Of a DNA stretch of 35,685 nt, positions 13,634 to 31,450 are shown one piece after another. The stretch comes from an uncultured Spartobacteria bacterium (GTDB taxonomy: Bacteria > Verrucomicrobiota > Verrucomicrobiia > Chthoniobacterales > Chthoniobacteraceae). Position 1 is the first letter of the stretch. Every line of letters begins with the position of its first letter. Made by a program: the position numbers and the translations under genes. Below the pieces are notes generated by a model. The model ran no database searches. It was given only the letters and a program-made list of their open reading frames with translations, and was not told the origin of the DNA. The DNA lies in contig CAIURC010000177.1 of assembly GCA_903901425.1 (NCBI GenBank), forward strand, positions 1-35,685, in the 5' to 3' direction.

Positions 13634-16600
13634 ATGAAAATGAAAAAGACAGCGGCCATTGTGGAACCCTTGGAAAGCCGGATTGCACCGGCGACGATCG
13701 TGACGTTGGAGTACGTGGCGGCGGAGAAGAGGCTCGAAATGAGCTCGGGCGGTGGTGTGGGCGACACGGTGAATGTGGAGGTGGTGCAAGTGAGCAAGGA
13801 CACGTTCCGGGTCCGTGCGGTGGATTCCGAAACCGTGCTGCAGATTTCCGGCGATACCGGCACGGCCTCCGTGCTCGACTTCAAAGCGGCTCTGAACGGG
13901 TTGGTCTTCACGGGTAGCGATGGGGACGATCAGTTGCGCCTCTCGGGCTTGACCGGGCTGAAGTTTTTCAGGTTTGAGGGGGTCACAGACCCGGTCACTC
14001 GCGTTGAGACGCAGGTGGACGGTGAGGACAGAGTCGAACTCAACAATGTGACGGTCACTGGGGATGTGAGTTTGAAGTTTGGCGGGACGGGGCAAGATCT
14101 GGTCACGTTGGGGGGGAACTCACTGAAGGTGACCGGGAGGCTCGAGACCGTCTTCGGTGCAGACGGCGGCAATCTGCGGGTCACGGCGATGGACAGCGTC
14201 ATCGGGACACTCAATGTTTCGGGTGGCGCCGGCGCGGATCTGGTGGAGTTCTCAGGGACCCGGGCCACGGTGACGAGCGAGATCGTGTTTGCCGCAGGTG
14301 GGGGAAGCAACTCGCTGTTTGTAACGCCGGATGTCCTTTCAATTGGCAAGTCGGCAGTGCCGGCCCGGTTGAACAACTCGATAACGTTCACCTCTTCGGG
14401 AACTGGAGGTGATAGTCTGACTCTTGATTCCGGGGTGAGTGCAGTCCTCGGGGGAGCGGTTCAGGCGAGTTTGGATGGAGGAACCAACACGGTATTGTTG
14501 GCAGGGGCCAGTCTGAAGGTGGGGGCTGCTGCGGGATTCTCGCTGATTTGCGAGGGAGGCGCCGGCACCGATACCCTGACGCTGGGCGCTCTCAATGCGG
14601 CATTTTCGGGTGGGGTCCGGAGCACGCTCGGCGACGGTTCCAACTCCGTGACGGTTTCAGGCATCTCGACGACACTGGGCAGCGCCACGGGTGTCTCTTG
14701 GCTGTATCAGGGGGGGCAGAATGCGGACGGGATTTCTGTGACGAGCGAGAAGTTCACTACGAGCGGAGCCTTGAATTTGAATGGTTCTGGAGGAACCAAC
14801 ACGGTCCAGATTCTCTCGCAGACAGCGAGCGTGGGCCGGGGCACTGCCGGGGAAACCGCGGGTTTGTCGGTGAATTACGTGGGTACGGGAGGGGCAGACA
14901 CCGTCCAGATGGGCGGCACCGCCAGTTCAGTGGATTTGAAGGGGGCGGTGCGGATGGATGCCGGGGCTGGCGCCAACCAGTTGGCATTTTCCGGGGTGAG
15001 CGTGGGTCTGGGGGCTGGTGTGGGAGCGACTGCGGGTGTTTCGTTGCAGTACCTCGGCGGTCAGGACGCGGACAGCTTCTCCACCAGTGGTGGCAGATTT
15101 GTGACTGCCGGAGCCTTGAACATAAATGGATCCGGAGGAACCAACACGGTTCAGGTTTTTTCGCAGACAGCGACCTTGGGCCGGGGCACTGCCGGAGAAA
15201 CCGCAGGTTTGGCTTTCAATTACGTGGGGGAAGGCGGCACGGACACTGTCCGTTTGGGGGATGCCGCAAGCGGGTTGGATCTGAAGGGGGCGGTGCGGAT
15301 GGTTGCCGGGGCTGGCGCCAACCAGTTGGTGTTTTCCGGCGTGAGCGTGGGGTTGGGGGCAGGAGTTGGCGCGACTGCCGGGGTTTCGTTGCAGTACACA
15401 GGCGGCCAGGACGGGGACAGCATCTCCAGCAGTGGAGCACGGCTTTCGACCGCAGGGGCACTGAATGTGGATGCAGGCGCGGGAACCAACACGGTCCAGA
15501 TGGTTTCGCAATCCCTGATTCTTGGCAAAGGGACTGCGGGTGCCACGGCTGGATTGTCCTTCAATTACGTGGGCGCCGGAGGCGCTGACACGGTTCGGAT
15601 TGGCAGTACCTCAGGGGGCAGCGATCTGAAGGGTGCCGTCAAGGTGGCGGTTGGTGATGGCACCAATGAACTGAGACTGCGAGGGATCAGTCTGAAAATG
15701 GCGGCCGGCGGCCGCACAGATTTTGGCGGCTCCGTGCTCTACACGGGCGGCAGCGGGGACGATGTGTTGAGTGTTGAGGCGAAGACCGCGTCGCTGTCTG
15801 GCGCCGTATTTTTCGTTTCTGGCAACGGCGACAACCGGCTGGTTCTCACGGGAGCTTCCCTGACGGTTGGAAAATCCACTGCGGCTTTCACAGGTGAGGC
15901 CAACGCAAAGGAAATCTCCAAGTCGATCCTGTTCGTGGCGAACGGGTCCGGCCAGAGCCTTCTCAGTTCAGACTACAAGACGCTGAATCTGGGAGGATCG
16001 GTGGAACTGCTGGGAACGGGATTCACGGGGAATTCGTTGAGCCTCGACATCCAGGGAGACGCGGTAACGATCGGGAAGTCGGCGGTGCTGGGACGGTCCG
16101 TGGCGGTGTTGGGCAACGCCTCGAATGCTGCGAGTTCTGCGGAGGTGAGGCTGTCTGGCAGGAGCCTGACGCTGGCTGGCGATTTCGAGGTGGAGGGGGT
16201 TCAGAATGGGTTGACCGTGGATGTGGATTCGGACCGGTTGAGTGTTGCGGGTGCGGTGCGGGTCACGGGTGGGAACGGATCGGATTCGGTGAGCATTGAG
16301 GCAGACGGCTCCGTGGCAAAGGCCTCGGTGATTGACCTGAAGGGGGTGGACGCGATCAACCTTTCGCCCACGTTGAACGCTGCCATGCTAAATGCCGGCT
16401 TTGATGCGGCGCTCGGGCTTGATACGGTCTCTTACAGTTTCAATGCCGCCACAGACATTGCGAGTACATCGGCTGGGTTTGACGCGGCATCGCTGCTGGT
16501 GAGTTTTGATGCGTCGACGCTGGACATCAATCCGAATGTATTCGTTGCCGGGAGCGACGTGGATACGGCTCAGAGCCGGATCACTCTGCTCCAGCACGGA

Positions 16601-29747: not shown

Positions 29748-30770
29748 TCAGGGCCGGAAACTGCGGAGCGCTTCAAGTTTTGCAGCGGCGCGTCCCGAGC
29801 GGATCTGTTCCCGCGCGTATTCGAGGCCGGAGGCGAGGTCCGGCTGGACGCCGGTGATGACAAATCCCGCGGCGGCATTGAGGAGGACCACGTCGGTGCG
29901 GGGTCCGGTTTCCGTGCCGTTCAGGATGCGCGTCAGGATTTCAGCGTTGCGCCGGCGATCGCCTCCCTTGAGGTGTTCGGCTTGGGCGAGCGGAAGGCCG
30001 AGCGTGGCGGGGTCCAGGGTAAAATGAGAGGAGCCTGCCGGGGTGGTTTCGTAGACGGAGGAGGGGCCTGTGGTGGAGAGTTCGTCGGTGCCGTCTCCGT
30101 GCAGGGCCCATGCCCGGGTTCTGCCGAGGAGGGCGAGGGCATCGCGGTAAACGGGAAGGAGGGTGGGAGAAAAAATGCCGACCAGCTGGAACGGGGGGGC
30201 CGCTGGATTGAGCAGGGGGCCGAGGAGGTTGAAAATGGTGGGGCAGCCCTCGGCGGCGAGTTGTTTGCGCAGCGGGGCCAAGGTTTTGAACGCCGGATGA
30301 TAGAGGGGGGCAAAGACAAACCCGAGTCCGTGGCGACCGATGCAGTCCGCGAGGTTGGCCGGGGAAAGCTCGATACAGACGCCGAGTTCCTCAAGCACAT
30401 CCGCACCCCCGCACTGGGAGGTGATGGCCCGGTTGCCATGTTTGACCACGCAGACGCCTCCTGCGGCCAGAACGAACATGCTGGTGGTGGAGATGTTGAA
30501 AAAGTCGAGCCGGTCCCCGCCGGTCCCACAGACATCCAGAAGGGGCCCGGGGAAGGACTGGAGCGGGATGGGCACGGCTTCTGCCAGGAGGCCGCGGGCG
30601 AACGCGGCAATTTCGGAGGCGGACTCCCCTTTTTTTCTGAGGGCCTTGAGAAACTCGGTTTTTTCGGTGGCGGGGGTTTGGGGCTGGAGCAGGGCGTGGA
30701 GGGCTTCCAGGGACTGGGCGTGGGAGAGGTGCTGGGAGAGGAGGAGGCACGCGGTGAGGTCAGGGAGCAT
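29748..30770 (-). CDS. trpD: Anthranilate phosphoribosyltransferase
   Basis: TrpD joins anthranilate to PRPP, the second step of tryptophan synthesis. From the ATG at 30770 it has 340 residues, the usual length. It contains the PRPP-binding GTGGD (82-86), FNIST (91-95), KHGNRAITSQCGGADVLE (110-127) and a later metal-binding DELSTTGPS. An in-frame ATG at 30848 would add 26 residues without family likeness. The chosen start follows six C residues and has no Shine-Dalgarno site. No other trp genes are in the window except a probable trpS at the far end, which is a charging enzyme and not part of the pathway. It is transcribed away from the tmRNA gene. Confidence 0.93.
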   Translation of the reverse strand: MLPDLTACLLLSQHLSHAQSLEALHALLQPQTPATEKTEFLKALRKKGESASEIAAFARGLLAEAVPIPLQSFPGPLLDVCGTGGDRLDFFNISTTSMFVLAAGGVCVVKHGNRAITSQCGGADVLEELGVCIELSPANLADCIGRHGLGFVFAPLYHPAFKTLAPLRKQLAAEGCPTIFNLLGPLLNPAAPPFQLVGIFSPTLLPVYRDALALLGRTRAWALHGDGTDELSTTGPSSVYETTPAGSSHFTLDPATLGLPLAQAEHLKGGDRRRNAEILTRILNGTETGPRTDVVLLNAAAGFVITGVQPDLASGLEYAREQIRSGRAAAKLEALRSFRP

Positions 30771-30890
30771 GGGGGGAAAGATGGCTTGGGTGGTGGGCAG
30801 CGGCAAGGTGGAGCTGAGGATTTGCTTTCCCGGATTTCTGTGCGACACTCATGGAAGGCAAGTGCACCGGGCACCGCCGGGGAATCGGGG

Positions 30891-30965
30891 CTTAAAGAGC
30901 TTAAAGAGCTTTAAAAGCTTAGAAAGACCATGGACTCTATGGACTCTATGGACGGGATGGACTCA
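30891..30965. repeat. Nine-base-periodic double tandem repeat (4 + 4 units)
   Basis: Four units related to CTTAAAGAG (30891-30926: two exact copies, then CTTTAAAAG and CTTAGAAAG) are followed by ACC and then four units related to ATGGACTCT (30930-30965: two exact copies, ATGGACGGG and ATGGACTCA). Both families have a 9-bp period although their sequences are unrelated. The tract lies between trpD and the tmRNA gene and does not belong to a convincing gene. Confidence 0.85.
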
Positions 30966-31025
30966 AAGTCCTAGATTTTCCGGAGGGGTTCCGAGGGGTG
31001 CTTGTGATGTTCTTTTGAAATTTTG

Positions 31026-31406
31026 GGGCCTGACATGGTTTCGATCGGGAGATTGTTTCCTGCAGGGCTGCATGCGGCGGAGGCTCCTTGTTCCGCCTTA
31101 TCAACAGGGGCAAAAATCAAACGCCAACAACATTGTTGACGCGAGCGACGCCTTCACGGGCGGAGAGCTCGCTCTGGCCGCCTAAACCGCGGACAGAGAT
31201 CGCCCCTCTGGCAGACGCCTGCTAGCCGGAGGGTACCAGCAGGCAAAGCGGTTACCGCCTCAACCCAGCGTTTCTGGGAAAGGGGCTCGCTTGGGGTAGG
31301 AAGTCTCGATTGGATCTGACACCCCGGTTAAAAAAAGACCCAGTCTAAGCATGTAGAAGCTCGCGGTAGATTTCCCGGGACCCGGGTTCGATTCCCGGCA
31401 GGTCCA
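31026..31406 (+). ncRNA. ssrA: Transfer-messenger RNA (tmRNA)
   Basis: tmRNA rescues stalled ribosomes with SmpB and tags the incomplete peptide for proteolysis. The 5' end GGGCCTG (31026-31032) pairs with CAGGTCC (31399-31405), including one G-U pair, to form the acceptor stem. It is followed by the D-loop-like ACATGGTTTCGATCGGGAG typical of tmRNAs. The 3' end has a T arm with CCGGG, TTCGATT and CCCGG, then the acceptor strand and A31406. CCA is not encoded. The tag frame lies in the middle, and GC-rich pseudoknot-forming segments follow it. Six T residues (31407-31412) directly after may assist termination. It appears to be one-piece, not permuted. The exact 5' end could differ by one base. 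Confidence 0.95.
31123..31185 (+). other. tmRNA proteolysis-tag reading frame
   Basis: The frame ends LALAA followed by TAA at 31183-31185. If the resume codon is the GCC at 31123, the tag is ANNIVDASDAFTGGELALAA (20 residues). The preceding AAC could instead be the resume codon. The ALAA end is the classical ClpXP-recognised degron. The tag is longer than the 10-residue coded part in E. coli. Confidence 0.8.
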
Positions 31407-31450
31407 TTTTTTCATCTTCTCCGGCAACTTGGCTTCAACCCATCCAGGGA

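Follow-up and report, generated by a model that had tools for sequence, protein, structure and literature searches.

An ATGGAC array beside ssrA in a Spartobacteria genome belongs to a class of 9-bp-phased repeats that accompanies genes of the TIGR04258 four-helix-bundle family

The window analysed here, a stretch of 35,685 nt from an uncultured Spartobacteria bacterium, carries two adjacent tandem blocks in the gap between ssrA, the tmRNA gene, and an oppositely oriented ORF (Table 1), for which the listed GTG may be too far upstream to be the real start. A sequence-only reading had described four units, a three-base joint and four further units, all with a 9-bp period and 60 bp upstream of ssrA, and this is what we found at 30891–30965. 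The left block consists of CTTAAAGAG (30891), CTTAAAGAG (30900), CTTTAAAAG (30909) and CTTAGAAAG (30918), and the right block of ATGGACTCT (30930), ATGGACTCT (30939), ATGGACGGG (30948) and ATGGACTCA (30957), so the imperfect units are the third and fourth in both. TRF reported period 9 for both arrays (30890–30921, score 50; 30930–30964, score 49). With up to three mismatches, ATGGACNNN ×3 matched the window three times, where 100 shuffles averaged 0.01, and CTTAAAGAG ×2 twice against a shuffled mean of 0.00. The array is single-sided, having no convergent partner at this locus, and the folded stretch as a whole gave a modest value (z −1.62). Elsewhere in the window, at 14764–15633, TRF found about two copies of a 345-bp tandem repeat (score 928), perhaps within a long coding region.

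Table 1. Positions of the two blocks and of neighbouring features in the window
Feature	Position	Strand	Basis or remark
Opposite-strand ORF flanking the gap, resembling TrpD by eye	29748..30848	-	ORF listing
Left block: 9-bp units ×4 resembling CTTAAAGAG, the first two exact and the others imperfect	30891..30926	+	sequence, TRF, shuffles
Joint ACC, three bases	30927..30929		sequence
Right block: four ATGGAC-headed units, member of the genome-wide ATGGACNNN array class	30930..30965	+	sequence, TRF, genome scan, shuffles
GGACTCAAAGTCC: last unit, then one inverted GTCC; 5-bp hairpin in single-strand fold	30959..30971	+	folding
tmRNA gene (ssrA), neighbour	31026..31409	+	array not assigned to it

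A single 9-bp frame accommodates both blocks (AAAGAG.CTT ... ATGGAC.TCT; 30894 to 30930 is 36 bases). This is no more than a hint and weak evidence on its own, since any phase could have been chosen for the left block. With up to two mismatches, CTTAAAGAG ×2 had no copy in the genome (G000) beyond the window locus. Across genomes G000 to G003 the search at two mismatches returned only the window and one two-mismatch match in G003, and the reversed control gave 1, 2, 1 and 2 matches respectively. The recurrence of CTTAAAGAG and ATGGACTCT blocks as a pair, which the sequence-only reading had proposed to look for, was therefore not borne out in this genome. We discarded TTAAAGNNN ×3 as the pattern of a second array class; it had no match in the genome and would miss even the block in the window. 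Other tandem runs, of assorted motifs and periods, numbered 8 in 6960 bases within 120 bp of ATGGAC arrays versus 5 in 66061 bases more than 400 bp away, a comparison biased by the probably richer coding content of the far stretches. Because CTTAAAGAG is a one-off and tandem runs are denser near ATGGAC arrays, the shared 9-bp period probably reflects two tracts in a repeat-prone gap, and our preferred reading of the left block is an independent tract, born of slippage in such an array-prone place. At one gene locus of the family described below (L262), three near-identical AAAGAC/AAAGTC hairpin modules surround a single gene (at −494, +197 and +1587 from its suffix domain), and one of them has CTTAAAG in common with the left block.

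The right block has a different distribution. In the 5.1 Mb genome (224 contigs), ATGGACNNN ×3 gave 165 matches versus none for the reversed pattern. The idea of a scattered, uncharacterised repeat class thus holds for the ATGGAC half of the tract and fails for the CTTAAAGAG half, and a chance expansion lacking other copies and absent from relatives does not describe the ATGGAC arrays, which occur in relatives as well. A pattern for array starts, which misses arrays having A nine bases upstream (the window's included), matched 40 places versus 2 for the control. The arrays that we read occur on both strands and share an invariant ATGGAC hexamer, whereas the three trailing bases vary between arrays; within arrays, 81 of 98 neighbouring spacers are equal. 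By a codon-usage score, which discriminates weakly, none of 31 arrays lay inside genes versus 80 of 560 random places. Open-frame length had been discarded for this purpose, being uninformative in a G+C-rich genome.

Across one genome per species, ATGGACNNN ×4 matched at least 112 stretches, and the matches listed include Hydrogenedentota, Lentisphaerae, Sumerlaeota/BRC1, Cloacimonadota, Chlamydiae, Chlorobiaceae, Phycisphaerae, Desulfomicrobium and others. Among these matches, 148 of 389 neighbouring spacers are equal, a count that, like the pair counts below, still includes matches (e.g. in streptomycetes) resembling coding repeats by eye. Spacers elsewhere are thus often unequal, and what is conserved is the hexamer with its 9-bp step rather than the 9-mer. 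The sequence-only reading had found slippage from one seed hard to reconcile with the tract. For many genomes we agree, since spacers that differ from unit to unit make simple slippage inadequate; slippage nevertheless acts, as the equal spacers of the own genome attest. Adjacent arrays no more than 80 bp apart were convergent in 27 cases, divergent in 2 and on the same strand in 12 (104 loci among the matches listed, omitting eight linked to the protein gene), and the convergent to divergent counts obtained among the matches listed were 24:2 and 27:2. Two of three paired arrays tried gave strong folds as DNA (z about −10), and complementary spacers occurred in 9 of 67 pairs among the matches listed. 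Viral contigs with the pattern (38 stretches) were not counted as arrays, many resembling in-frame coding repeats by eye. In the contigs L158–L192, many ATGGACNNN or GTCCATNNN runs look by eye like coding repeats in frame, either acidic Met-Asp or collagen-like Gly-Pro.

One array of the own genome, at C12:35606–35735, lies in the open frame of a 'four helix bundle suffix' protein (TIGR04258), the gene for which occupies about 35.4–36.2 kb of contig C12. The protein (L011) and a relative (L111) scored 66.4 and 57.5 bits for TIGR04258 (NCBIfam cut-off 40), 28.3 and 32.9 bits for TIGR02436 (cut-off 24) and, below the cut-off of 33.8, 26.3 and 30.8 bits for PF05635. A bundle domain is followed by a linker, encoded by inverted ATGGAC/GTCCAT arrays, and then by the suffix domain. 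Related proteins with arrays inside or nearby were found at L068, L111, L128, L135, L137 and L152, loci that had been collected for their ATGGAC arrays.

Loci gathered by the protein alone gave a comparable picture. In a sample of the phylum, TIGR04258 matched in 207 of 387 genomes (202 over the cut-off), and 108 gene loci (L194–L301) were gathered in this way. Period-9 runs were present in 93 of them, versus 13–30 at periods 7, 8, 10 and 11 and 56 at period 12. In 78 of the 95 parsable loci such runs lay just upstream of the gene, in the linker or just downstream, and the same test at periods 8, 10, 11 and 12 gave 2, 8, 5 and 8 loci. The most frequent 4-mer at distance 9 was GGAC/GTCC (292 pairs in 59 of the 108 loci); at distances 6, 12 and 15 this pair occurred 5, 8 and 6 times.

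We then compared the presence of gene and arrays by genome. Among 38 relatives (own genome included), TIGR04258 was present in 12 and ATGGAC ×3 in 8; seven had both, G006 had arrays alone (7 matches) and five (G018, G023, G024, G028 and G037) had the protein without ATGGAC arrays. The five with an ATGGAC-clade protein, as placed by a tree, had 165, 122, 92, 30 and 13 matches, those at the gene itself included, and the other 33 had 0–7. A matrix of 67 genomes comprised 47 chosen for a gene locus with a recognizable word and 20 without the gene. TCRGAC, ATGGAC and GATCNGNCN, each ×3, matched 22, 14 and 27 of the 67, and none of the three matched in any of the 20 gene-free genomes; by our count from the tables, 39 of the 47 gene-bearing genomes had at least one. 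Nine genomes had 13 or more ATGGAC matches. Six of these have an ATGGAC-clade protein placed by the tree, and the other three (G146, G153 and G357) carry 4helix_suffix genes (L340, L309 and L306) that are close to the clade by eye. Congener G001 had 90 GATC-type (both strands) and 16 TCRGAC matches and no matching gene was found in its assembly, which is 86% complete. Outside the gene, matches were few or absent in several TCGGAC-type genomes, and some genomes of a cognate clade had almost none (G339, 0; G181, 1; G330, 1); dispersal is accordingly a variable trait.

The word varies with the protein. At gene loci we found ATGGAC (ATGGACNNN as array pattern), TCGGAC (TCGGACNNN), AGGGAC (AGGGACNNN), TAGGAC, TGGGAC and a GATC type. 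A fixed rule assigned a word to 50 of the 108 loci; the other 58 had no clear word, though many of them show other period-9 runs. On a tree of 48 labelled loci (two were too short), the words require 12 changes versus a shuffled mean of 32.2, and none of 200 shuffles was as low; the TGGGAC label alone is unclustered (5 changes, with 107 of 500 shuffles at least as low). After removal of the linker, protein identity correlated with array-word similarity in a Mantel test restricted to pairs under 80% identical (61 of 148 genes usable; r 0.273, 0 of 2000 permutations as high). Paralogues within one genome (G199) differ as their clades do, with AGGGAC at L259, TCGGAC at L302 and the GATC type at L303. 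Within g28, a genus of this class whose genomes were picked from the phylum-wide TIGR04258 search, the word is retained among related genes (e.g. downstream arrays of GTCCACCCA in L331, L332 and L334 and of ATAGGGGTG in L323, L326, L330 and L335), and unit number ranges from a few to more than 20; in three g28 genomes no gene was found. Unit number, which the sequence-only reading had proposed to compare between strains, thus varies between related genomes, and we conclude that slippage resizes arrays while the word persists. Ahead of the gene at L280 (G118), about 45–50 bp composed of GTCC units recur in tandem several times, which looks like the duplication of an entire array module. By eye, proteins of the GATC-type clade (L207, L208, L203, L210 and others) have a C-terminal, zinc-ribbon-like CxxC...C tail that was not seen in the ATGGAC clade.

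An AlphaFold2 model of the L128 protein (mean pLDDT 86.2) has seven helices. The solved structures closest to it are 2gsc (TM by target 0.80, E 8e-3) and 2rld (S23 family); no solved structure matched at E 1e-3, and sequence searches of PDB and PHROGs gave no match. According to PMC10053308, PF05635 is related to Avd and to 23S IVS proteins, and 2gsc, described in a reference title as five four-helix bundles, is aligned there with Avd. Because 2gsc and 2rld are the best matches and 2gsc is described as five such bundles, a reasonable guess is an oligomer that would read one 9-bp unit per protomer. No conserved neighbour gene or partner was found in most gene loci, and the largest neighbour cluster (82 loci) was set aside, its members apparently being, by eye, other reading frames over the gene itself. 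No domain catalysing mobility was found among the gene neighbours. The only other recurrent neighbours identified were Type I restriction-modification genes (HsdM, HsdS or HsdR homologues by Pfam); of 128 gene loci, 20 had such a homologue in the stretch, e.g. L259, L261, L273 and L213.

Taken together, each protein clade tends to pair with its own hexamer, often of the form XYGGAC, every 9 bp at the gene, and some genomes also carry dozens of hexamer arrays away from it. We consider the ATGGAC block of the window to be, probably, a dispersed cognate site of the TIGR04258 protein encoded elsewhere in the genome; binding and mobility of the arrays we infer from sequence association. An S23/Avd-like oligomer would recognize the 9-bp-phased words, one protomer per unit, either in duplex DNA or in a hairpin formed by convergent arrays. 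This interaction would keep the words while spacers drift and might let copies of the array spread as a non-autonomous, REPIN-like element, the unit number of which polymerase slippage could afterwards alter while evening out the spacers. There is about an even chance that such pairs form a class of protein-repeat systems, selfish or domesticated and linked to none of the known transposases, in which each four-helix-bundle suffix protein would read a private hexamer every 9 bp, keep arrays in and around its gene and spread or maintain them genome-wide in Verrucomicrobiota/Lentisphaerota and several other phyla.

The position of the block 60 bp upstream of ssrA might point to a cis element of that gene, such as a promoter or processing site. 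In congener G002, a trpD-like gene and ssrA are adjacent with no array in the gap (read by eye), its ssrA being 88% identical to that of the own genome and preceded by the same gene. Because the same genes meet there without an array, a role in ssrA function is unlikely, and with the ATGGAC class being genome-wide, we give a dedicated cis element hardly any credence. Congener G001 has a 9-bp array built on another word, ATGGGACCT, on the other side of ssrA, close to its 3′ end (L042, about 40–110). Plain microsatellites, i.e. ATGGAC tracts born by slippage with no protein partner, would account for the uniform spacers within arrays of the own genome and for unit numbers that differ among related genomes. 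We nevertheless regard them as very improbable, given one hexamer at dozens of loci with differing spacers, the unequal spacers of other genomes, the co-variation of word and protein clade and the lack of arrays in the 20 gene-free genomes.

Two further explanations grant the protein a part. It could be a global DNA- or RNA-binding regulator, with autoregulatory arrays at its own gene and an immobile regulon elsewhere, and the way in which arrays hug the start and end of the gene, together with their position outside genes by the weak codon-usage score, is compatible with this. The dispersed arrays, however, occur on both strands, and genomes of one family have anything between 0 and 165 matches, where a regulon would vary less, and the ssrA site is empty in G002; operators are therefore unlikely in our view. 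Alternatively, arrays might be transcribed and bound as RNA hairpins by the S23/Avd-like protein, for example in stabilizing or processing transcripts. The convergent polarity among the matches listed, the strong DNA folds of paired arrays and the kinship that links PF05635 with Avd and 23S IVS proteins (PMC10053308) argue for such a function; the scarcity of complementary spacer pairs among the matches listed and the many single-sided arrays, the window's included, argue against it and make it distinctly unlikely.

The statistically well-supported association between protein and repeat is undescribed in the open-licence PMC literature, our search of which gave no account of these arrays or of the role of TIGR04258. 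The term 'nonanucleotide' in PMC13055324 was dismissed as a prior description because it denotes an unrelated G homopolymer. Our results provide candidate partner DNA for a widespread uncharacterized family, and the correspondence of protein clade and DNA word suggests a code between them. If binding is true, the family would represent a new kind of sequence-reading protein and the arrays a new class of bacterial repeats, and repeats might be able to spread by a novel route that needs none of the known transposases. To our knowledge, no DNA reader of this four-helix fold has been described.

Cyanobacterial STRR sequences are heptanucleotide repeats in several families, the short tandem units of which are dispersed between genes, and we know of no partner protein for them. 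Their units are exact and 7 bp long, whereas the arrays reported here have period 9, with six fixed and three free bases, and a co-varying protein. The 23S rRNA IVS (S23) proteins and Avd of diversity-generating retroelements (DGR) are similar in fold, 2gsc and 2rld being the best solved matches, and TIGR02436 scores over its cut-off whereas PF05635 stays below its own; they differ by lacking the suffix domain of TIGR04258 and the array-coded linker, and around the genes described here no reverse transcriptase was noticed among the largest neighbour clusters, nor was an rRNA context seen. Type I restriction-modification genes are likely a preferred neighbourhood and not a component, most gene loci being without them. 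The REPIN/RAYT system, in which REP doublets occur with a REP-associated tyrosine transposase, is treated in PMC3116915. Here a non-palindromic hexamer recurs in 9-bp phase, unlike the single REP palindrome of about 20–40 bp; the partner found is a four-helix-bundle protein and not a Y1 transposase, and arrays also lie within the coding sequence of the gene. Inverted doublets are represented by the convergent pairs among the matches listed (27 versus 2 divergent) and not by the array of the window. Common to both systems are short extragenic repeats, inverted doublets capable of forming hairpins, a dedicated gene beside the same repeats and distinct repeat groups tied to distinct protein groups (PMC3116915).
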